From: Streptomyces sp. NBC_00425
GTDB taxonomy: Bacteria > Actinomycetota > Actinomycetes > Streptomycetales > Streptomycetaceae
Reading direction: 5' to 3'
NCBI RefSeq assembly: GCF_036030735.1
Contig: NZ_CP107928.1
Location: 4,712,001-4,776,000 of the forward strand
Length of the DNA: 64,000 bases
The position numbers were made by a program, and so were the translations under genes. The notes under the pieces are model-generated. The model was not told where the DNA came from, searched no databases, and worked only from the letters and a program-made list of their open reading frames with translations. This document shows, one piece after another, positions 16,179-27,427 of this stretch. Within the stretch, counting starts at the first letter, position 1, and every line of letters begins with the position of its first letter.

Positions 16179-17288
16179 TCAGATCAGGTTGAGGGCCTCG
16201 CAGGCGGACCTGTACTTGGCGGTGCAGATGTCGGATGCCTTGTAGATGCCGTCCGCGATGACGGTCTGCTGGATGTTCTTCTTCGTCAGCGCGACCACCG
16301 TGACCAGCTTGGCCGGAATGGCCTTGTTGGTCGGGCTGTCGACCGTGTCGCGGGTGAGGGCCTCGAACTGGAGGTCACGTCCCTGGACCTTGGCGACGGC
16401 GGCCTCGGCGGCGGCCTCGGCCATCGCCGGGTAGGGCTTGTAGACGCTCATGAACTGCTCGCCGGTGATGATCCGCTGCACGGCGGGCAGTTCGGCGTCC
16501 TGACCGGTGATCGGGGGCAGGTCGGTGTCCTTGACGCCCGCCGCCTCCAGGGCCTTGATGATGCCGCCGGCCATGGCGTCGTTGGCGGAGTAGACGCCGG
16601 CGATGTTGGACTTGCCGATCGCCGCGATCGCCTTCGTCATGCTGGCCTGGGCGACCTCGGGGCTCCACTTGTCGGTGTCGTACGACTTTGCGATCGTGAC
16701 CCGTCCGCTGATCTCGCTGAGCGCGCCCGCCTTGAACTGGCCGGCGTTCGGGTCCGCGGGCGAGCCGTTCACCATGACGATCTTGTCGGAGACGTCGACG
16801 TTCGGGATGGCCTCGACGAGGCTGCGTCCCTGCACCTCGCCGACGAGCTCGTTGTCGAAGGAGACGTACGCGTCGATCGGGCCCTGGGCGAGGCGGTCGT
16901 AGGCGATGACCGGGATGTTCGCCTCCTTGGCCTTCTTCACCATGGGCGCGATCGCCTTCGCGTCGACGGCGTCCAGCAGAATGATGTCGACCTTGTCGTC
17001 AATCATCTTCTGCATCTGCCGGTCCTGGGTCTTCTCGTCCGAGGCGGCGTTCGCGTAGTCGGTCCTGCCCTGGTTCTCCGTGAGAGCCGCGACCTTCTTC
17101 TTGATGATCGGGTAGTCGAACTCCGCGTACCGGGTGTTCGTCTCCTCCGGCATCAGCACGCCCACCGTGATCGCGTTGCTCCGGGTCGGTGTCGCACTGC
17201 CGGTCTTCTCCGAGGCCCCCAGCATCCCGCACCCGGCAAGTGAGAGGGACATCGCGGAGGCGACGACGGCTATGGCGATACGACGCAT
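16179..17288 (-). CDS. sugar ABC transporter substrate-binding lipoprotein
   Basis: 369 residues. The signal peptide with lipobox LAGC (Cys near residue 20) predicts lipid anchoring outside the membrane. The mature part is a type I periplasmic-binding fold of the ChvE/XylF/RbsB group: VGVLMPEETNTRYAEFD, DIILLDAVDAKAIAPMV, IPVIAYDRLAQGP, YVSFDNELVGEVQG, GVYSANDAMAGGIIKAL and PPITGQDAELPAVQRI. The best guess is xylose-like sugar binding. No permease or ATPase gene is nearby, so it is an orphan that may feed another transporter or act as a sensor subunit. Confidence 0.88.
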   Translation of the reverse strand: MRRIAIAVVASAMSLSLAGCGMLGASEKTGSATPTRSNAITVGVLMPEETNTRYAEFDYPIIKKKVAALTENQGRTDYANAASDEKTQDRQMQKMIDDKVDIILLDAVDAKAIAPMVKKAKEANIPVIAYDRLAQGPIDAYVSFDNELVGEVQGRSLVEAIPNVDVSDKIVMVNGSPADPNAGQFKAGALSEISGRVTIAKSYDTDKWSPEVAQASMTKAIAAIGKSNIAGVYSANDAMAGGIIKALEAAGVKDTDLPPITGQDAELPAVQRIITGEQFMSVYKPYPAMAEAAAEAAVAKVQGRDLQFEALTRDTVDSPTNKAIPAKLVTVVALTKKNIQQTVIADGIYKASDICTAKYRSACEALNLI

Positions 17289-17606
17289 TTCGGGTGCTCA
17301 CTTCAGGTGCGTTCGGGGCGTTGCGGACCGGGGTGCGGCATTGGTGACCCGGGTATCTGAGAAGCCAACGCGGCGGCGACCGCCGTCGTCAAGCAGAACC
17401 GCTTAACGAAGGAGCAACGTCACACTCCGCTCAGGGTGTGAAGACACATGGAGACGAAGCGGAGGCCCTGAAAAGGTCTGACCGGACAAATCGGGCTAAG
17501 GGCGGGCCAAGGAACCGCAGGGCCGACGCGGGCGGCCGCGGGCCGACGAGGACCTCTCCGAGACCTCGACGGCGTCGGCGCCGGCCCCCGCGGCGACCCG
17601 ACCCGC
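17289..17606. other. intergenic, no gene seen
   Basis: Holds the upstream region of the lipoprotein gene and the end of the calpain operon. No convincing ORF, RNA or strong hairpin. Confidence 0.5.
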
Positions 17607-17855
17607 CTAGTCGGTCTTCTTCAGGACGACGCACCAGTCGTCGCTGCCGGGGTTCTCCACCCGGTCGACCTTCCAGTTCTCGGCCCGGACGGCGAAGGAG
17701 TCACCCACTTCGAGGGTGTACCTGCGCTCGTCGTCCGCAGCCACTCCCAACCGCACCGTCAGCGGCACCCCGGGACGGGCGTCCACATGAATGACCCCGA
17801 ATTGAATCCCGTCCTCGAACGCGGGAATTCCGTGGACGAGCCTGACTTCGGACAT
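17607..17855 (-). CDS. small beta-rich protein, last gene of the HerA-calpain operon
   Basis: 82 residues starting MSEVRLVHGIPAFEDGIQFG; core VIHVDARPGVPLTVRLGVAA, YTLEVGDSFAVRAENWKVDR and DDWCVVLKKTD. It looks like a single beta-sandwich domain found in small Streptomyces proteins (possibly a DUF such as DUF6406; not certain). I chose the second ATG, eight bases after GGAG; an ATG two codons earlier overlaps the calpain stop (TGATG). Either start indicates translational coupling, so it probably works with the calpain-like protein, for instance as inhibitor or partner. Confidence 0.65.
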   Translation of the reverse strand: MSEVRLVHGIPAFEDGIQFGVIHVDARPGVPLTVRLGVAADDERRYTLEVGDSFAVRAENWKVDRVENPGSDDWCVVLKKTD

Positions 17856-17860
17856 GACCA

Positions 17861-19996
17861 TCACTCCAGTGTGACATAGCTGGGCTTTATGTATTTCTTG
17901 AACTCGGAAACCGTCAGTTCTTCGGGGTGGTTGATGTTGTGTGGATTCCTCAGGTGGAAGTGGCCCCGGTCGTCCACCTCGGTCACCTCGTAGGCATGCC
18001 CCGAAATGAGGTCCTTGGCCAGGGGCGCCTCGCTTCTCTTCGTCGACACCGTACCCACGAGAACAGGGCAGTTGTCCGCGAGTTTCCCCCGGATGTCCTC
18101 GATCAGCTGACGGTCCGCGCTGCGTCCCTGCATGTCGTATCCGCTGGGGAATTCCACGACGGACGAGGGGCGGCCCGTCAGCTGGGTGAGCACCTCGGCA
18201 CGCTCGTTGCCGTAACTGCCGTTGTCCAGTCGCACATACCCCCGGGTGCCGGCATCCGCCTGGGAGTGCTGCCGGTCCCACTTCGCCCGGCGTTCGTCGT
18301 CCCATGTCTGGTCAACGCCGGCGATCGCCTTCTCCAGAATCGCCGGCCAGGCCACTCCCACTTCGGCCGTCCGCGCGAACCCCGCCTTTCCGGGTTCCTC
18401 CGAGAACACCGGCAGTTCGGGGGTGACGGTGAGCCGGACGGGCCGCCCGGTCGGCTCGTAGCGACCCCGCAAGGCCGCGTATTTCGTCTCGTGAAGAGTC
18501 ACCTCGTAGTCGCCGTCCTCGCGTTCCCGCACGGCGTCGCGAATGGTGTCCGGCAGATGTCCGGCGACGGCGCCCATGGTGGAGATCATGCCGCAGTCGC
18601 CGATACTGCCCTGGTGCGTCTGCTCCCGTCGCGGCGCACCGTCGAACAGCGGGACACGCGTGCCGTCTTCGCGTTCCAGCGGATTTCCGTACCGATCCGG
18701 ACGCGCGTTCAGGGCCTGCGGGTTGTGGAAGTCCGGCCGGTCCACGACGGACTGGACCTCCGTCGGCTTGTCCGGGCCCCGCACCGCGGCGACGGCATCC
18801 TTGAAACGCCCCATGAGGCCACGTCCCGACGACTGGTCGGCCTCCTCGTCCGCCGGCGCGCCCTCCGCCGCCCCGGCCGACTCGTCCTGGGCCTCTGCGT
18901 CCTCACCGGCCTGCTCTTCCGACGATCCCTCGCCTGCCTCTTCGCCTCCGACGGCCCCCTCGCCCTCCTCGACCGTGTCCGGCGCGGCGTCCTCGTCCGA
19001 CGGCTCCGACAGCTCCGCCGGGTCCGCCGGCACGGGCGAATCCGACGACTCCAGCAGCTCAGAGGGCTCCGCCGGGTCCGCCGGGTCCGCCGGGTCCGCC
19101 GGGTCCGCCGGGTCCGCCGGGTCAGATGGCTCCGGCTGCTCAGACGGCTCCGCCGCGTCTGCCGGGTCCGCCGGCGCGGGCGAATCCGACGACTCCAGCA
19201 GCTCAGAGGGCTCCGCCGGGTCCGCCGGGTCAGATGGCTCCGGCTGCTCAGACGGCTCCGCCGCGTCTGCCGGGTCCGCCGGCTCGAACGGCTCCGGCTG
19301 CTCCGGCTCGTCGTCCGGTGTCTCGCTCGCCTCCGCCGGCTCTTCCGCCGGCTCCTCCGCCCGCACGTCGACGTCGTCGTCCCCGGACAGTTCATCGGGT
19401 TCTCCGGTGGCCCGGTCGCGGGCGCTGCTCTCCGCAGCCGCGAGACCGGCCTCGTCCACCGTCGTCCGGGGCCCGTCCGCCTCCGCGTCGCCGTCGGCAT
19501 CCGACGGTTCCCTCTCCGCACTCTCAGCGCGTGCGCCCTCGGACTCCGCGAGTTCCTCCGGTGCCCCCGACGCTTCGGGCTCCTCCGGCTCCTCCGGCTC
19601 CTCCGGTGCTTCGAGTTCCTCCGGCTCCCCCGGTTCCCCCGGTTCCCCCGGTTCCCCCGGTTCCCCCGGTTCCCCCGGTTCCCCCGGTTCCCCCGGTTCC
19701 CCCGGTTCCTCCGGCGCCTCGGACTCCTCGGGTTCCTCCGGCGCTTCGAGTGCTTCGGGTGCCTCGTCCGGTGACTCCGGTTGCTCCGCCTGCTCGGGTT
19801 GTTCCGGTTGTTGCGGCCGGTCGCTCAGGTCTCGGGAGGGGGCGTCCGGCGACGCCGCGGAGTCGTCACCCCTCGGTTCCTCGGGCTCTCCCGTCGCTTC
19901 CGCCCGCCAACCCGGCGGGCCGTCGGTCTGCTCCGGAGGCAGAACCGGAGGCAGATCCGGAGCCACCGGACGTTCGCTTTCGTGAATTTCACTCAC
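17861..19996 (-). CDS. calpain-like cysteine protease with long acidic repeat region
   Basis: 711 residues. The first 430 or so are low-complexity and strongly acidic: Pro/Glu runs with eight consecutive GEP units, then Asp/Pro/Ala runs (DPA repeats). The C-terminal 280 residues form a C2 (calpain) peptidase core: QGSIGDCGMI with the catalytic Cys near residue 468, SGHAYEV with the His near 668, and RNPHN with the Asn near 683, all in the right order. There is no signal peptide or TM segment, so it is cytoplasmic unless exported by another route. The GTG start (VSEIHESERPVAPDLPP) overlaps the end of the HerA-type ATPase gene by eight bases. The acidic region may be an intrinsically disordered tether. 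Substrate unknown. Confidence 0.85.
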   Translation of the reverse strand: MSEIHESERPVAPDLPPVLPPEQTDGPPGWRAEATGEPEEPRGDDSAASPDAPSRDLSDRPQQPEQPEQAEQPESPDEAPEALEAPEEPEESEAPEEPGEPGEPGEPGEPGEPGEPGEPGEPGEPEELEAPEEPEEPEEPEASGAPEELAESEGARAESAEREPSDADGDAEADGPRTTVDEAGLAAAESSARDRATGEPDELSGDDDVDVRAEEPAEEPAEASETPDDEPEQPEPFEPADPADAAEPSEQPEPSDPADPAEPSELLESSDSPAPADPADAAEPSEQPEPSDPADPADPADPADPADPAEPSELLESSDSPVPADPAELSEPSDEDAAPDTVEEGEGAVGGEEAGEGSSEEQAGEDAEAQDESAGAAEGAPADEEADQSSGRGLMGRFKDAVAAVRGPDKPTEVQSVVDRPDFHNPQALNARPDRYGNPLEREDGTRVPLFDGAPRREQTHQGSIGDCGMISTMGAVAGHLPDTIRDAVREREDGDYEVTLHETKYAALRGRYEPTGRPVRLTVTPELPVFSEEPGKAGFARTAEVGVAWPAILEKAIAGVDQTWDDERRAKWDRQHSQADAGTRGYVRLDNGSYGNERAEVLTQLTGRPSSVVEFPSGYDMQGRSADRQLIEDIRGKLADNCPVLVGTVSTKRSEAPLAKDLISGHAYEVTEVDDRGHFHLRNPHNINHPEELTVSEFKKYIKPSYVTLE
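19019..19703. repeat. in-frame repeats within the calpain-like gene
   Basis: Eight exact copies of the nonamer GGTTCCCCC at 19632-19703 encode (GEP)8. A six-copy GGGTCCGCC array near 19070-19125 encodes DPA repeats. A block of about 130 bases is repeated between roughly 19035 and 19290 (SELLESSDSP...SEQPEPSDPADP units). All are multiples of three, so length variants would stay in frame. Confidence 0.85.
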
Positions 19997-22775
19997 TTCC
20001 GTCCCCCGTGCTGCTCTCGGCGGTGTCCGGCCGTCGGATCGAGCGTGCGAAGCACGACAGCGTGCGCGCGAACCGGCCGCGCCACTCCTGCGACGTGTCC
20101 GCGCAGCCCACGATCCCCTCCAGCACCGACGGCTCGTGACGCCCGTGGTAGTACACCCGCGTCCGCGTCCCCTTCCGCGCCTTGAAGCGGGGCTCGCCGA
20201 CCGGGCACGGGTCCAGCCCGTCCAGTTGGGCCCGCATCGCCGCCGCCACATGCTCGGCGAGCGCGCCCGGGCGGGAAGGAGCGCCGGCCCGGCTGTGCAC
20301 CGCCGCGTCCACGGCCTGGCCGATGGCGCAGTCCAGCAGGCGGCCCCGGTACGGCTCCAGTTCGCGCCGCATCGCCTCGCCCGGCAACGGCGTCGTCCAG
20401 CCCAGCAGATGGGCCGCCACCGTCATCTCGGCCCACAGCGTGACCCGCAGTTCGGCCTGTTCCGTCAGCCGCTGGGCCCGGCGCAGGTCGCGCAGTGTGC
20501 ACGGGGCCGTCGAGCAGTCGGGCGCGCACGCGCGACTGCGCGGACCCGTCATGCCCGCCGCCGACGCCGGCCTGATCGCCCCCGCGTCCTCGCGGTCCGT
20601 CCCGTCCAGCATCCGCACGAGCAGCGGATAGTCCATGCCGTCCGTGAAGACGGCCGCCTCGCCCGGCCGCAACGTGACCAGGTACTCGGACTGGGCCCGC
20701 GTGATGTTCATCGTCGCGCCGACCGCCTCCCGGTCGTCCTGTGCGGGCAGCCGGTGGACGATCTTCGCCGCCGTGTTCTTGATGACGTCGGGCAGCAGCT
20801 TGCTCGGGATCTGGTCGGCAACGACCAGCCCCTCGCCGTACGCCCGGATCTCCGCCAGCAGGCCCGCGAACATCTCGACGGCGTGGGCGCTCGCGCCGCC
20901 CTCCTCGGCGCGGCGCAGCAGGCGGTGCGCCTCCTCGAAGACCGTCAGGTGGCGCAGCGGGAAGCTCAGCCGACGGGTGACCCGCTGTTCCATGCGCAGA
21001 TACTCGACGAGCCTGATGAGGATCGTGCCCATCAGGAACGCCTTGTCCTTGTCGTCGCCGACGTCCTCGATCTCGAAGACCACGTTGCGCTTCAGCAGCT
21101 CGCCGAAGTCGAGCGGTCGGCCGCCCTCGAGGAAGCGGCCGGTCGTGCCGAGGCGCAGACCCGCCAGGCGGATCCTGATGAAGCCCTGGACGTTGTCGGC
21201 GACCTCCTTGCCGTAGCCGATGTCCGCGACGACCCGCAGCGCCGTGTGCTCCAGGTCCTCGAGGGTCGGGTAGCGCGGTTCGGCGCCGGGGAACGTCGGC
21301 TCGCCGAGCGTCAGGTCCCAGCCCAGATCCTCGTAGCAGCGGGTCAGCGCGGCGCTCAGGACCTGCGGGAACGGTTCCTGCGGGTCGAAGGAGGCCAGGA
21401 AGAGGGAGCGCACCATGTCCAGGTGCGTCTGGAGCGGGAAGCGCTCGCCGTTCGTGTACGCGGACGGCTCCAGGGGGTTCAGACCGGCCGGGAGGGACTC
21501 CGGATCGCCCGGCTTGACCACCACGACCTCGGCGGCGTCCCCGAGCCGCGCCGACATGAAGCGGTACTCGGCCTTGGCCGGTTCCACCACCAGCCAGGGG
21601 ATGCCCGCGTGCGTCGCCGACTCGAGGAGGCCGCGTACGGTCTGCGACTTGCCGCCGCCGGTCGCCCCGCACACGAACGTGTGCCGGTTGAGGGTGGAGC
21701 GGGTCAGTTCGAGGGCGCCGACGGGACTGCGGTTGCGGTCCAGCACGGAGCCGAGCCGGACGGGCGCCGCCCCGGGCGGCGCGGGACGGTCCGAGGTCTC
21801 GGGGGTGACGTCGAACTCCGGGCGCAGGGCGAACCGTACGCCGGGAATCTCCTGGGCCGGCGGCCGGGCCAGGGCCGCCAGCAGGTCCGAACCGGCGAGG
21901 CAGGGGTACTCCTCCGGGGCCGGGAGGGCCCCGCCGAGGGCGGTGGCCAGGTCGCCGACCCGCCCGGTCGGACGCAGCGCGTACGGCAAACCCTCCAGGT
22001 CCGCCGAAGCGCACAGCAGCGCCGCCACCCGGGTCGCCTCCTCGGGCGTCCGGCCGCCGGCCAGCAGCCGTATGCGCCACAGTCCGGTGGCCGACGCCTT
22101 GGCCAGCTCCTTGTGGCGGCGCTCGAGTCGGGCCGCGGCGATGGCGTATTCGGGCGAGCTCTCCGCCTTGGCCTGTGCCCTGCGCCGTTCGTCGGCCACG
22201 TCACCGGTGAGTTCGCCGAGCTCCGCGGGCGGCACCGGCTCGGCGAACACCAGCCAGGCGAAGGGCTCCTGCCACACCCCGAGGAGACAGTCCTCCAGGG
22301 TGGGCCGCCGGCGGGCGGACGCGGTGTCCACCGGCCTCGGCTCGTCGTCGACGAGCAGTCCGTCGGACACGCCGGCGACCGCGCTCCAGCAGGGGAAGGC
22401 GGTCATCAGGGCGGCCGCCGTGCCCGCCGGCCGGCGCACGCCACGCGCGCCCGCGGGCAGCCTCAGCAGGGACGCCGTCCCGTCGGCCGGGTCCGTGCGG
22501 CCGCCCAGCAGGTCGGCGCCGCCGACGAGGACGTCCAGCGGACCGTCGGCCGCCGTCCGCGCCCAGCCGACCAGCACCGCGCCGCCCGTCGGGTCGTGCG
22601 GGTGCGGGGCGTGATGGGCGGAGACCAGGGCGGCGAGGCGCTGCGCGCGCAGCTCGTCCTCACCGCCGGACGGCCGGTCCTCGGAGGGCCGCTGCCGCGG
22701 GACCTCGCGCAGCAGCGCGGTCTCCAGGCTCGCGAACCGCTGCCATGTGCCGCCGCCCGGTGCGTGGTCCGTCAT
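19989..22775 (-). CDS. HerA/VirB4-type ATPase (DUF87-like)
   Basis: 928 residues. Walker A FVCGATGGGKSQTV lies near residue 365-375, and the Walker B/HerA-type signature LTVFEEAHRLLRR near residue 605-615. VVVKPGDPESLPAGLNPLEP and VVADQIPSKLLPDVIKNTAAKI are further HerA-family blocks. The N-terminal 300 residues are not recognised. A C-terminal CAPDCSTAPC cluster could bind metal. HerA-type ATPases form hexamers that pump DNA or, in secretion-linked forms, proteins. It is the first gene of an operon with the calpain-like protease and a small protein, divergent from an M48 protease and a TraD-like membrane protein. Confidence 0.85.
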   Translation of the reverse strand: MTDHAPGGGTWQRFASLETALLREVPRQRPSEDRPSGGEDELRAQRLAALVSAHHAPHPHDPTGGAVLVGWARTAADGPLDVLVGGADLLGGRTDPADGTASLLRLPAGARGVRRPAGTAAALMTAFPCWSAVAGVSDGLLVDDEPRPVDTASARRRPTLEDCLLGVWQEPFAWLVFAEPVPPAELGELTGDVADERRRAQAKAESSPEYAIAAARLERRHKELAKASATGLWRIRLLAGGRTPEEATRVAALLCASADLEGLPYALRPTGRVGDLATALGGALPAPEEYPCLAGSDLLAALARPPAQEIPGVRFALRPEFDVTPETSDRPAPPGAAPVRLGSVLDRNRSPVGALELTRSTLNRHTFVCGATGGGKSQTVRGLLESATHAGIPWLVVEPAKAEYRFMSARLGDAAEVVVVKPGDPESLPAGLNPLEPSAYTNGERFPLQTHLDMVRSLFLASFDPQEPFPQVLSAALTRCYEDLGWDLTLGEPTFPGAEPRYPTLEDLEHTALRVVADIGYGKEVADNVQGFIRIRLAGLRLGTTGRFLEGGRPLDFGELLKRNVVFEIEDVGDDKDKAFLMGTILIRLVEYLRMEQRVTRRLSFPLRHLTVFEEAHRLLRRAEEGGASAHAVEMFAGLLAEIRAYGEGLVVADQIPSKLLPDVIKNTAAKIVHRLPAQDDREAVGATMNITRAQSEYLVTLRPGEAAVFTDGMDYPLLVRMLDGTDREDAGAIRPASAAGMTGPRSRACAPDCSTAPCTLRDLRRAQRLTEQAELRVTLWAEMTVAAHLLGWTTPLPGEAMRRELEPYRGRLLDCAIGQAVDAAVHSRAGAPSRPGALAEHVAAAMRAQLDGLDPCPVGEPRFKARKGTRTRVYYHGRHEPSVLEGIVGCADTSQEWRGRFARTLSCFARSIRRPDTAESSTGDGSE

Positions 22776-23198
22776 ATCCGCTCGGTCCGTCCGGCACTTC
22801 CCGCGCGTCCGGCAGGTGCGGGGTGTTCGGCGCGTCCGGCGCGTTCTCGCCGCTGCTCGGCGGGTTCGCTCCGGGGAATGGTGACGGGCTCGTGCGCGAG
22901 CGGTCTTCTGGGCAACGTCTCCCCCGTTGTCGATCTTGCGGCACCACCCTAGAGGCAGCGGTGAACGCGGCCAAGCCTTGCAACTGTGACGTCACTTCCC
23001 CTCATTCCAGGTGGACTTGGGAAGTCGATTCGTGCACCATGTGTCGGCTGCTGATCAATGACTGACATCCGCTTCGGCGGCCACGGGGGCGAGTTCAATC
23101 ATCAGAGGCATGTCTTCTGCCGTCCGCGGGACGGTCATTTCTCACCTGTCCACAAGTGAGCGCCTTCATGGTGCCCATCTCCCTCAGGGCGAACCCAT
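22776..23198. promoter_or_regulatory. divergent promoter region with GTGACGTCAC palindrome
   Basis: This 423-bp gap must contain the promoters of both divergent operons. The perfect 10-bp palindrome GTGACGTCAC at 22986-22995 lies mid-gap and is a candidate shared operator. No ORF seen. Confidence 0.4.
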
Positions 23199-24620
23199 AT
23201 GACCCATCCCGTTGACCCTCGCCAACCCCAGAACCCGTACGGGTACGGGGGCCCCGGGCATCCCGACGCCCCGTCCGGTCCGCCGCAGGATCCGGCCTAC
23301 CCACCGGGTCCCCCCGCGCCTCCCGTCCCGCCGCAGCAGGCGCCGTACCAGGCCGCGCCGCCCCACCAGCAGCCTCCGTACCCGCAACCGCCGTACCCGC
23401 AACCGCCGTACCAGCAACCGCCGTACCAGGCCGCGCCACCGCAGCAACCCCCGTACCAGCAGCCTCCCTACCAGGCCGCGCCACCGCAGCAACCCCCGTA
23501 CCAGCAGCCGCCGTACCAGCAGGCTCCGCACCACACGACGGCTCAGCCGCCCCAGTTCACGCCCCAGCCGCCCGCGTACGGTCAGCACCCCCCGCACGCG
23601 GCGTCGCAGCAGCATCCGTTCGCACCCCAGCAGCCCTTCGCACCCCAGCAGTCATTCGCGCCGCAGCAGCATCCGCAGCAGGCGCCGTCCCAGGCACCGC
23701 CGTTGGCGTATCCCCAGCAGCCGTACGCGCCGGTGCCGAACGCTCCCGGCGTTCCGCAGGTGCGCCGCAGCGCCGACGCCACCTCGGTGGCCAGGCTGCT
23801 GCTCAACGTGCCGCTCTTCCTGGGCAGTCTCCTGGTGGTGTGGCTGATCTCCCAGGCTCTGCCCAGCGGTCTGGACGTCGTCCTCGTGGTCGCCTGGCTG
23901 GCCTCCGGCGCCCTGGTGTTCCACCGGCCCACCGAACGCGGCCTCGCGAGGCTGCTGTTCAAGATGCGGCCGCCCACCGGCGCCGAACTGGCCGCGCTCC
24001 AGCCGATCTGGGACGACGTCACGCGCCGCGCCGGGATCGACGGCAGCCAGTACACACTGTGGCTGGAGGACACGGACGAGCTCAACGCCTCCGCCGCCGC
24101 GGGGCACATCGTCGGTGTGACGCGCGGCGCGATGCGGCAGCCGCCCCAGCAGTTGGCGGCCGTCCTCGCCCACGAGCTGGGGCATCACGTCGGCGGTCAT
24201 TCCTGGGCCCTGCTGCTCGGCATCTGGTACGCCGTGCCGGTCCGGATGTTCATGACCGTCGTCAAGTTCGTGACGCGCTTCCTGTTCTTCTTCACCGCCG
24301 AACTCTCCTGCCTGGCGGCCGGCGTCTTCGTCGTCGTCTTCGGCGCCTTCGCCGTCGCGACCTTCCTCGCCTTCCCGCCCGCCGTCGTCCTCTACGCGAT
24401 CCCGTTCCTGCTCGCCTGGGCCGGCCGGCAGGGCGAACTGCGGGCGGACCGGTTCGCCGGTCAGCTCGGGTACGGACCCCTGTTGATCTCCGTGTTCGCG
24501 GGCTGGCAGGCCGAGGGCCATGACGACGCCGCCCGCAAGGAGAGCCCCGTCGCCCGGCTCATGTCCTCGCATCCGCCGCTCCACCAGCGCATCCGCGCGC
24601 TCGAGACCTTCGTCGCCTGA
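23199..24620 (+). CDS. M48-family membrane metalloprotease with Pro/Gln-rich N-terminus
   Basis: 473 residues. Residues 1-185 are low-complexity PQQPPYQQPPYQAAP-type repeats. Two hydrophobic segments follow (around 200-240), then the HtpX/M48 domain with zinc motif AHELGHHVGG near residue 325, two more TM segments (about 345-400), and the third ligand Glu in GELRADRFAGQLG near 412. The end (SSHPPLHQRIRALETF) is typical of M48 peptidases. Such enzymes cut misfolded or regulatory membrane proteins. It starts the plus-strand half of the divergent cluster; the next gene follows after 19 bases. Confidence 0.88.
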   Translation: MTHPVDPRQPQNPYGYGGPGHPDAPSGPPQDPAYPPGPPAPPVPPQQAPYQAAPPHQQPPYPQPPYPQPPYQQPPYQAAPPQQPPYQQPPYQAAPPQQPPYQQPPYQQAPHHTTAQPPQFTPQPPAYGQHPPHAASQQHPFAPQQPFAPQQSFAPQQHPQQAPSQAPPLAYPQQPYAPVPNAPGVPQVRRSADATSVARLLLNVPLFLGSLLVVWLISQALPSGLDVVLVVAWLASGALVFHRPTERGLARLLFKMRPPTGAELAALQPIWDDVTRRAGIDGSQYTLWLEDTDELNASAAAGHIVGVTRGAMRQPPQQLAAVLAHELGHHVGGHSWALLLGIWYAVPVRMFMTVVKFVTRFLFFFTAELSCLAAGVFVVVFGAFAVATFLAFPPAVVLYAIPFLLAWAGRQGELRADRFAGQLGYGPLLISVFAGWQAEGHDDAARKESPVARLMSSHPPLHQRIRALETFVA

Positions 24621-24639
24621 CAGGCCGGGAGCCTCACGC

Positions 24640-26838
24640 ATGACTGTCGAAAGCACCGAGACCGGACAGCTCGGCCGCTACCTGCGCCTCTTCGACGCGG
24701 GTCCGCGTCTCGGCTGGGTCCACCGCGACCCCGAGTCGCTGCGCCGGCCGTTCGTCGAGCCGGAACCCCGGCGTCAGCAGGTGGAGGTCGGATACGAGAA
24801 CCGGGCCACCGCCGCACGGCTCGACCACGAGGAACGACGCGGATCCGCCCTGAAGGTCGGCGGCGGTGTCGCTGCGGCCTGCTTCGTGCTGAGCTACTTC
24901 GCCGGACCCGTCATGGCGGTCCTCGGCGTCGTCGCGATCGTCGTCGCCCTCGCCCGGATGGCCCTCGCCGCCCAGCGGCTCAGCTCGGCCACCGGTCACC
25001 TCACCACCCAACAGGCCGCCCTGGAGCAGCACTTCCAGTCCTCCTGGCAGATGTGGCAGCAGCGCCGGCACCACCACGAGAGCGGGCAGGAGGAGTGGGT
25101 CCGCGGCCTGGACGCGTGGGGTTCGCTGCCCCTCGGCGCCGACATCCGGCGCCTGGACGTCTTCGGCGGCAGCCAGCGCGGCCGCGAGGGCTTCCTCACC
25201 GTCTTCGGGGCCTCCACGCTCCAGGACCGGCCGGTGATCGTCGTCGATCTGACGCAGGCCCTGGTGTGCCGGGAGCTGTCCGTCCTCGCCGAGGCCGCCG
25301 GAGTGCCCGTCGACGTCCAGCTGCTGCCCAGCCGGATGGCCGAGAGCAGCATCGTCGGCGGGCTGGGCCCCCACGAGCTGGTGCACGCGCTGGTCGAGGC
25401 GGTCCACGGCGACAGCCCCGAGGCGGGCCGCGCCGATCGCGCCGTCGACACCCGCATCCTCACCCAACTGTGCGGCGCCCTCGGCGACGACGTCTCGGTG
25501 GCCCGGCTGGGCGCGGGACTGCGCGTCCTGATGGGCGAGGCAGACGACACCGCCTGCCTCGGCCGGGACGAACGCAACCGGATCGCGGACGACCTGCTCA
25601 ACGACAAGAACAAGGACCAGGTGCGGGACAGCCTCTTCCGCCTGGTCTCCTTCGTGCACCCGCTGGAGCGGCTGGGCACCGCCCGCGAGGGGCGCGGCCC
25701 CGGCTATCTCACCTGTCTCGCCCTGGACTTCGGCGCGGGCTCGGCGAGCACGGAACTGCTGGCCGACCTGGCCGTGCAGAGCGTGACGCGGCGGCTGGCC
25801 TCCTTCCAGGAGACCGCTCCGGCCGTGCTCGTGGCGCTGGGCGAGCAGGGCCTGCAGCGACGCCACCTGGAACAGCTGGCGCAGGTCTGCGAGCGCCGCG
25901 GGTCCCCACTCGTCCTGCTGCAGCCGCACCTGAGGGACGCCGCCGAGCAGATGATCGGCGGCGGCACCGTCGCCTTCATGAAGCTCGGCAACCACCAGGA
26001 GGCCAACGTCGCTGCGGACTTCATCGGCCGCGAGCACTCCTTCGTCCTGCACTCGCTGACCGACACCGAGGGCAGGACCGTCAACACCTCCGTCGCCGAG
26101 ACGGTCGGCTCCTCCGTCAGCAGGGGGACGACCCACAGCGAGTCCGTCACCCGCGGACGCAACTGGGGCAGCAGCAGCTCCACCAGCTACCAGGGCGGAT
26201 CCAACCCGTTCTCGTCGTCGTCCTCCACCAGCTCGGGCGGCAGCCACAGCACGACGACGGGCACCTCCACCAGCGTCACCCACACCAGCAACGAGTCCAC
26301 GACCCGCACCACCGGCGACAGCGACAGCACCAGCCTCGCGACCGGACGGCAGCGCGTCTACGAGTACGTGCTGGAGCCGACGCAGCTGCAGGCGCTCGCC
26401 GAGTTCAGTCTGCTGGTGGTGGAGCGTCGGGCCGGCGGCGCCGTGCTCGTGCACCCCGCCGACTGCAACCCCAACATCGTCCTGCTGGACCGGGTCAGCA
26501 CGGCGCCCCTCCCGCAGTTCGACCCGGCGCCCGCGACGCAGATCCCGGCGCACCACCCCGCGCCGCAGCACCCCTACCCCGCCGCGCCGCAGCACCCGTA
26601 TGCACCCACCGCCCACCCCGCGGCGCCGCCGCAGCCGTACGCGCCCGCCGGGCAGCAGCCGTATCCGGCCGCGCCCGCGCAGCCCTACACCCCCGGCTTC
26701 CAGCCCGCGGCGCCCCAGCAGCCCGAGCAGCCGCAGTGGCCGTCGTACGGGCACCCGCACCAGCCCGGCGGTGGCGGCGACTGGACCCAGGGGCCGCCCG
26801 CGAACTGGCCCGGACAGCAGCCGGGAACCCACCGGTGA
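24640..26838 (+). CDS. membrane protein resembling a coupling ATPase without Walker A
   Basis: 732 residues. Two adjacent TM helices lie at about residues 65-110. The large soluble region then keeps features of TraD/HerA-like ATPases: VIVVDLTQALVCRELSVLAE, and APAVLVALGEQGLQRRHLEQ with LAQVCERRGSPLVLLQPHLR followed by FMKLGNHQEANVAADFIG. I find no GxxGxGK[ST] loop, so it is probably inactive as an ATPase. A Ser/Thr-rich stretch (about 500-570) and a Pro/Tyr/Gln-rich tail follow. The ATG has GGGAG eight bases upstream. It probably assembles with the divergently encoded HerA ATPase. The ATPase-like assignment is inference; the membrane topology is clear. Confidence 0.6.
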   Translation: MTVESTETGQLGRYLRLFDAGPRLGWVHRDPESLRRPFVEPEPRRQQVEVGYENRATAARLDHEERRGSALKVGGGVAAACFVLSYFAGPVMAVLGVVAIVVALARMALAAQRLSSATGHLTTQQAALEQHFQSSWQMWQQRRHHHESGQEEWVRGLDAWGSLPLGADIRRLDVFGGSQRGREGFLTVFGASTLQDRPVIVVDLTQALVCRELSVLAEAAGVPVDVQLLPSRMAESSIVGGLGPHELVHALVEAVHGDSPEAGRADRAVDTRILTQLCGALGDDVSVARLGAGLRVLMGEADDTACLGRDERNRIADDLLNDKNKDQVRDSLFRLVSFVHPLERLGTAREGRGPGYLTCLALDFGAGSASTELLADLAVQSVTRRLASFQETAPAVLVALGEQGLQRRHLEQLAQVCERRGSPLVLLQPHLRDAAEQMIGGGTVAFMKLGNHQEANVAADFIGREHSFVLHSLTDTEGRTVNTSVAETVGSSVSRGTTHSESVTRGRNWGSSSSTSYQGGSNPFSSSSSTSSGGSHSTTTGTSTSVTHTSNESTTRTTGDSDSTSLATGRQRVYEYVLEPTQLQALAEFSLLVVERRAGGAVLVHPADCNPNIVLLDRVSTAPLPQFDPAPATQIPAHHPAPQHPYPAAPQHPYAPTAHPAAPPQPYAPAGQQPYPAAPAQPYTPGFQPAAPQQPEQPQWPSYGHPHQPGGGGDWTQGPPANWPGQQPGTHR

Positions 26839-26898
26839 CCCGGACCGCCCGGCCGACGGCGACCGGCTGACTCGTACACCCCCGCGGTCCGACCGCCG

Positions 26899-26962: not shown

Positions 26963-27427
26963 TCAGTCGGGCGTCGAATGCTGCCGCTTCGGACGCCAGA
27001 CCACCAGCGCGCTGGTCTGCTGCACCTCCTGGTACGGCACCAGGTCCCGCCGGTAGGAGGCGTGCACCGCCGCCTCCCGCTGCTGCATGGCCGCCGCCGC
27101 GCCGTCGAGCGCGGCCTCCAGCTCCGCGGCCCTGGCCTGGAGCGCGGCCACCTGGTTCTCCAGCTCGATGATCCGCTTGATGCCGGCGAGGTTGATCCCC
27201 TCGTCCTGCGACAACTGCTGGACGGTGCGCAGCAGTTCGATGTCGCGGGCCGAGTAACGGCGGCCCCGGCCGGCGGTGCGGTCGGGGGAGACCAGGCCCA
27301 GACGGTCGTACTGACGCAGGGTCTGCGGGTGCAGGCCGGAGAGCTGGGCCGCCACCGAGATGACGTAGACCGGGGTCTCCTGAGTCAGTTCATACGGGTT
27401 ACGCCGACGGCCGTCCATCACTCTCAA
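26963..27427 (-). CDS. hspR: HspR, MerR-family heat-shock repressor
   Basis: 154 residues. The N-terminal MerR helix-turn-helix reads VYVISVAAQLSGLHPQTLRQ followed by YDRLGLVSPDRTAGRGRRYS, and a coiled coil follows (about 90-115, AALQARAAELEAAL). HspR binds HAIR inverted repeats together with DnaK and represses the dnaK operon and clpB; matching HAIR boxes are present upstream of both here. Its ATG overlaps the dnaJ stop (ATGA). It is the last gene of the operon, giving autoregulation. Confidence 0.96.
   Translation of the reverse strand: MRVMDGRRRNPYELTQETPVYVISVAAQLSGLHPQTLRQYDRLGLVSPDRTAGRGRRYSARDIELLRTVQQLSQDEGINLAGIKRIIELENQVAALQARAAELEAALDGAAAAMQQREAAVHASYRRDLVPYQEVQQTSALVVWRPKRQHSTPD

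Follow-up and report, generated by a model that had tools for sequence, protein, structure and literature searches.

Polymorphic toxin systems join a constant part to exchangeable C-terminal tips, carry a small gene behind the toxin as the likely immunity gene, and exchange these parts as cassettes; the excerpted text of a 2012 survey counts at least eight secretory systems that they use and places their FtsK/HerA ATPases with type VII secretion (PMC3482391). An excerpt of a further account ties constant parts with variable effectors to trafficking (PMC7159879). HerA ATPases also occur in the antiphage systems HerA-SIR2, HerA-DUF4297 and HerA-NurA, where the HerA gene adjoins an effector gene, and partial texts describe HerA/FtsK capture systems (PMC12839542) and HerA-sirtuin systems (PMC9503650). 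The Streptomyces locus presented here resembles polymorphic toxin systems in its constant part, exchangeable tips, small gene behind the toxin and cassette exchange, but the trafficking routes named in the survey excerpt include no stand-alone HerA with a membrane pseudo-ATPase (PMC3482391). Like the antiphage systems, it has a HerA ATPase with an adjoining effector gene; it differs from them in its membrane pseudo-ATPase partner, in effectors from toxin families and in a HerA that does not reach the antiphage HerA models. The pseudo-ATPase, which we call P5, differs from the type IV secretion ATPases VirB4/TrwK and VirD4/TrwB in having no Walker A lysine, and no other type IV part occurs among the 25 commonest neighbour families. 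In type VII/ESX secretion with WXG100 toxins, the calpain-DUF6406 cassette of our locus serves as a toxin tip in one genome (G064), whereas here none of 33 proteins encoded behind HerA has a WXG match, and HerA and P5 are separate proteins.

The window, the whole 64,000-nucleotide stretch of Streptomyces sp. NBC_00425 DNA that we analysed, comes from a genome of 9.8 Mb on one contig. The block of interest (17547..26893, delimited by blastn against genome G013, locus L126) lies between hspR (26963-27427), with hspR-dnaJ-grpE-dnaK on that side, and a sugar-binding lipoprotein gene (16179-17288). All five genes reported in a preliminary description are present as open reading frames (ORFs) where it placed them. 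On the minus strand, the gene for a HerA-type ATPase (19989..22775) is followed by those for a calpain-tipped effector of 711 amino acids (17861..19996) and a DUF6406 protein of 84 amino acids (17607..17861). The plus strand encodes an M48 membrane metalloprotease (23199..24620) and, after 19 bp, P5, a two-TM, VirB4/VirD4-like protein with a Ser-rich insert and a Pro/Gln tail (24640..26838). For the calpain gene, whose long ORF spans 17861-20251, the likelier start is the GTG at 19996, which gives an 8-nt overlap with the HerA gene. P5 was placed at 24640 rather than 24520 because an aligned ortholog begins at MTVES; the ORF start at 24520 is too early, and the M48 and P5 genes do not overlap. 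Gene starts, and small genes other than those named, are approximate.

Between the two operons lies a divergent intergenic region of 423 bp (22776..23198), holding a single copy of the palindrome GTGACGTCAC (22986-22995). The region and its palindrome are as first described, but the palindrome was missing from the M48-HerA interval in all seven orthologous blocks checked and is therefore without support as a shared operator. Disordered tails had likewise been proposed for three proteins. That of P5 is backed by pLDDT below 50 at residues 638-649 and 654-732 of an AlphaFold2 model; the Pro/Gln-rich N-terminus of M48 and the acidic, Pro/Glu-rich N-terminal half of the calpain protein are called by composition only.

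The HerA protein is identified by matches to HerA_C (4.1e-7) and DUF87 (2.2e-5), by its relatives, and by a Walker A motif, GATGGGKS, at residue 370 and a Walker B motif, VFEEAH, at residue 612. From these motifs it looks active, yet hydropathy revealed no TM-like stretch. P5 has two such stretches and no Pfam match, and its AlphaFold2 model resembles the TrwB, VirB4 and HerA folds. The Walker A lysine is absent in 68 of 68 P5 sequences, confirming the early remark that the TM protein has no Walker A. Because a functional Walker A is missing while the fold is retained, we regard P5 as a pseudo-ATPase. The proposal of a membrane-linked pair, one translocase-like ATPase active-looking and one inactive, is thereby supported.

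Species genomes were scanned with an alignment built from three HerA sequences; 91 stretches were confirmed, and the best 80, whose titles are all actinobacterial, were kept. By tblastn, P5 was found (E<1e-8) at 69 of these best 80 of 91 loci. In 67 cases it lies no more than 3 kb from HerA, and the two genes may be divergent or follow each other in either order, P5-HerA or HerA-P5. It was missing at nine of the 80 and weak at two more, and several of these 11 contigs end near HerA. Four loci (L036, L043, L074 and L075), at which tblastn sees HerA though a GC3-based gene finder gave no HerA ORF, were left out of the slot-ORF counts below. In 296 genomes of the phylum searched without regard to adjacency, five have HerA (E<=1e-60) and four have P5 (E<=1e-15), all four being HerA genomes; the hypergeometric chance of this, calculated by hand with genomes taken as independent, is about 1.6e-8. 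In one genome (G373) HerA and P5 lie on different contigs, and in another (G003) a P5 of 31% identity is likewise not on the HerA contig. Across 52 loci the pairwise identities of the two proteins show a correlation of 0.94, a value reached in none of 2000 permutations and partly reflecting shared species history. Within the genus the P5 core was found in four of 101 genomes, one of them weak. HerA and P5 are thus co-inherited and not two independent operons: they form the constant core. A single five-part machine, as first envisaged, is not borne out, M48 and calpain-DUF6406 being variable.

The same holds for the idea that the two proteases are joint parts. M48 has a HELGH motif at residue 325, E413 and five TM-like stretches, and scores 67.1 bits against a cut-off of 20.3 (PF01435, 2.4e-18), which places it in peptidase family M48. 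It was found at 21 of the best 80 of 91 HerA loci and within 1.5 kb of P5 at 17 of the 80, and we treat it as an accessory part. Since calpain-DUF6406 is just one of many cassettes that can be exchanged, calpain and M48 do not form a fixed pair.

The block had been suspected to be an insertion beside hspR, and its presence and absence support this. hspR was found in 61 of 61 genomes of the genus searched. We compared about 12 kb on its 3' side in 20 of the 60 other genomes, mostly those with the best-scoring hspR, and in none of the 20 did HerA, P5, M48, calpain or DUF6406 lie beside hspR (E<=1e-5), so that the block is not universal there; a relative of the lipoprotein gene did so in 14. In the near-sister genome G013, in which hspR is 99% and the lipoprotein 97% identical, 474 bp separate these two genes. 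By blastn, homology to the window is lost at 26894 and picks up again at 17546, so that 9,347 bp of the window correspond to 61 bp in G013; beside hspR, 89 additional bp of G013 stand opposite 4 bp of the window. Because the distribution is patchy, the comparison favours gain of the block in the window over loss in G013.

Five more genomes carry the block at hspR (L023, L024, L025, L028 and L122); hspR fell within the fetched stretch at four of the best 80 of 91 HerA loci, besides the window and L122, and is therefore one of several sites of the system. The tips at this one site differ, with a Scabin-like domain in S. scabiei (L024) and calpain in the window, L023, L025, L028 (S. stelliscabiei) and L122. 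The hspR-P5 interval holds further genes at some loci. At L023 it contains a 931-codon ORF (L014:2476-5268) that has no Pfam match and was not seen at other loci among the best 80 of 91; its product includes the stretch HELGEL and has a Pro/Gln tail. Its 191-amino-acid neighbour has relatives in L024, L028 and L122 that stand without that ORF, like an orphan immunity gene. In L024 (3290-6081) and L028 (3214-6054), genes of clusters c15 and c41 (200-450 amino acids) lie between hspR and P5; they look alike by eye and are perhaps orphan immunity genes.

The position behind HerA is variable. We scanned 33 slot proteins with Pfam, from loci with a plausible ORF after HerA, one of them (L044) lying instead between P5 and HerA. 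Eight exceeded a Pfam cut-off, with six kinds of domain: Scabin-like (L024, 5.1e-37), ADPrib_exo_Tox (L031, 3.5e-28; plasmid pSCL4, L103, 2.1e-24), Zeta_toxin (L040, 3.2e-15; L078, 1.4e-38), YwqJ-deaminase (L097, 4.3e-6), XOO_2897-deaminase (L039, 3.5e-20) and RHS repeats with DUF6531 (L077, 1.7e-86). Peptidase_C70 (L060, 0.0094) and RelA_SpoT (L104, 4.4e-4) matched under cut-off, and 23 of the 33 had no informative Pfam match. NCBIfam returned nothing for ten proteins (nine slot proteins and the window calpain). No WXG/LXG match at E<=0.05 was found among the 33, so the slot proteins were not classed as type VII substrates. Different C-terminal toxin domains on carriers at one type of locus are the mark of polymorphic toxins, and the slot proteins, with calpain in the window and eight relatives, display it.

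Of 40 slot ORFs with a measured offset, 19 overlap the end of the HerA gene by 8, 4 or 1 nt, and in three plasmid copies the annotated slot gene starts 4 nt before that end. In the unselected set of ORFs that follow HerA, 22 of 63 had a bulky-residue fraction of at most 0.12 in their first 60 residues, as against 8.6% of 626 other ORFs. A set of 45 slot ORFs, falling into 33 C-terminal groups, was picked partly by this trait, and its N-terminal composition is therefore not independent evidence; about five of the ORFs are doubtful, and the doubtful genes at L033, L037, L056, L070 and L072 were kept in the count. PPPPP occurs within the first 45 residues of 10 of the 45, compared with 8 of 740 other ORFs, a background not purged of slot ORFs.

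Several slots hold a second gene behind the toxin. The YwqJ deaminase is followed by a MORN_2 protein, a likely toxin-antidote pair; a YwqJ-YwqK pair is known. The pSCL4 operon reads P5-HerA-ADP-ribosyltransferase, then a likely antidote of 134 amino acids. On a Nocardia plasmid a 725-residue slot protein precedes an ankyrin protein, again a likely antidote, and ankyrin immunity proteins (Imm-ank) are named among polymorphic-toxin immunity proteins in the survey excerpt (PMC3482391). On an S. antimycoticus plasmid (L104:9895-12766) the protein with the weak RelA_SpoT match is followed by a 94-amino-acid gene and an HD-domain gene. Elsewhere the position is filled differently: at 11 Actinomadura-type loci (e.g. 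L045, L053, L054 and L061) the place of a toxin is taken by a membrane protein of DUF1361 type, whose gene abuts that of HerA or overlaps it, at Frankia loci P5 or an opposite-strand gene comes after HerA, and at five loci a related acidic protein (cluster c16) lies upstream of HerA. Disordered-looking proteins after HerA at L063, L069, L046 and L095 appear by eye to end in one hydrophobic stretch, unlike the enzymatic tips.

In the window the slot holds the calpain gene. Its calpain domain (17966..18634, stretch 540-762 of the long ORF; PF00648, 5.2e-9) scores 36 bits against a Peptidase_C2 cut-off of 23.8, and its triad, C468, H667 and N684, retains Cys, His and Asn in 10 of 10 aligned calpains. 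Profile and triad place it in family C2 and predict a protease; the effector has no hydrophobic stretch. Calpain occurs in three of 101 genomes of the genus, with DUF6406 directly behind in all three. DUF6406 (PF19944, 1.1e-23 in the window) exceeds its cut-off in six of the 101: the same three, G088, where a short remnant of calpain is left, and G053 and G059, where no calpain is matched. G064 lacks a HerA match; there the calpain is the last domain of a 2393-amino-acid protein that carries a WXG100-like domain at its N-terminus (4.1e-13) and also has a toxin domain of the glutamine-deamidase kind (1.8e-50) and a sub-threshold deaminase match, and DUF6406 overlaps the end of this protein by 4 nt. 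The DUF6406 model is all-beta (pLDDT 90.9); a fold search gave no known protease-inhibitor fold and no telling match, and the name was not found in open-licence PMC literature.

HerA is 91% (L023) and 89% (L122) identical to the window protein; the calpain domain is 54% and 52% identical, respectively, and DUF6406 35% in both. Calpain fills the slot in the window, L023, L025, L026, L028, L029, L030, L036 and L122. Among the best 80 of 91 HerA loci, L036 (Microlunatus speluncae) is the one non-Streptomyces locus with a calpain tip, and tblastn found no DUF6406 behind that tip. At L025 (12766-16167) two successive calpain ORFs each have a DUF6406-like match behind them, which looks like the addition of a second cassette. 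The differing tips at the hspR site, the calpain-DUF6406 pair on a WXG100 protein and the calpain remnant with DUF6406 in G088 together indicate cassette exchange. Judged by domain content, the position behind HerA is a predicted toxin slot, and calpain with DUF6406 one exchangeable cassette among many. The pair is predicted to behave as toxin and immunity, with DUF6406 as the presumed protective partner.

The block is probably a polymorphic-toxin system, with HerA and P5 as its constant machine, a modular calpain effector, DUF6406 as immunity protein and delivery to another cell. This rests on the order of the genes, the co-inheritance of HerA and P5, the lost Walker A, the P5 fold, exchange of tips at one site and the calpain-DUF6406 pairing elsewhere. 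The preliminary description had offered secretion, quality control and defence; a secretion-type conflict system fits best, and intracellular defence is its rival. There, a membrane HerA-P5 complex would sense incoming DNA and free the toxin inside a cell undergoing infection or conjugation, which would be killed or halted, with DUF6406 as antitoxin. The PADLOC models HerA and mad8 match the window HerA (3.6e-17 and 8.8e-15), the HerA proteins of solved antiphage complexes match HerA by profile and P5 by fold, the effector's want of a hydrophobic stretch and the patchy distribution would suit such a role, and no channel family occurs among the 25 commonest of 107 neighbour families. We nevertheless consider defence unlikely, as RHS repeats, ADP-ribosyltransferases and deaminases are listed as exported polymorphic toxins in the survey excerpt (PMC3482391). 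The calpain-DUF6406 cassette also ends a WXG100 protein, and the NCBIfam antiphage HerA models NF042943 and NF042944 are far below cut-off (37.6 of 800 and 24.5 of 850 bits).

It is more improbable still that HerA and P5 are a minimal VirB4/VirD4-like DNA pump with toxin genes as passengers or recipient-control factors, even though known HerA relatives are DNA translocases and P5 has a fold like VirB4 and TrwB. Streptomyces TraB moves DNA without other known type IV subunits, according to an excerpted report (PMC12857230), which lends the idea some plausibility; yet the 25 commonest neighbour families include no relaxase or transfer family, P5 occurs in 19 plasmid records of which 16 are typed non-mobilizable (though 16 of the 19 are S. 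clavuligerus copies), and many loci have a slot gene that overlaps the stop of HerA. Quality control, in which HerA would unfold substrates for calpain and M48 with a heat-shock link through hspR, draws on the two proteases in the block and the adjoining hspR-dnaK genes. It is without support and very improbable: at the hspR site of L024 an ADP-ribosyltransferase-type tip stands in place of calpain, and among the best 80 of 91 HerA loci M48 is present at 21 and hspR at four.

In the polymorphic-toxin reading, the disordered-looking N-terminal half of the calpain effector would be a handle and its C-terminal protease the toxin, which DUF6406 would bind and silence in producer cells. HerA would be the motor, a soluble ATP-hydrolysing ring, and P5 its membrane dock and receptor, anchoring the machine through contact with HerA and, we infer, giving it polarity. 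Together they would grip the effector N-terminus first and feed it across the membrane, or onto it, toward another cell, the toxin tip being unfolded or released at the membrane. Where present, M48 may trim or release the effector there.

A scan of 132 of the 333 neighbour ORFs matched 107 Pfam families, the 25 commonest of which include no type VII secretion part and no type IV part such as VirB6, VirB8 or VirB10, and titles and abstract starts in the open-licence PMC literature yielded no description of HerA with a membrane pseudo-ATPase as a polymorphic-toxin machine. An excerpted report on S. albireticuli places an alarmone synthetase beside 'TrwB, TrwK, TrwI' and suggests type IV secretion (PMC12691689). 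Compared by description only, this locus is possibly the same machine under type IV names; the S. antimycoticus plasmid reads P5-HerA-664 amino acids, the last with the weak RelA_SpoT match (4.4e-4, under cut-off). A bolder proposal, which is a serious possibility though somewhat short of an even bet, is that HerA and P5 are an undescribed actinobacterial protein-export machine. An active soluble ring and a dead, membrane-anchored sister ring of VirB4/VirD4 stock would read a disordered, sometimes poly-proline N-terminal tag and deliver interchangeable toxins into neighbours.

If right, this would add a further polymorphic-toxin route in Streptomyces and other actinobacteria, and a live motor with a dead membrane twin would be a simple model of protein handling by VirB4/VirD4-type pumps. 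DUF6406 gains a testable role. Calpains are scattered, occurring in a minority of Streptomyces species, and have been called a puzzle in the excerpted text of an earlier report (PMC4631099); calpain as an exchangeable toxin tip offers a possible reason for this pattern.
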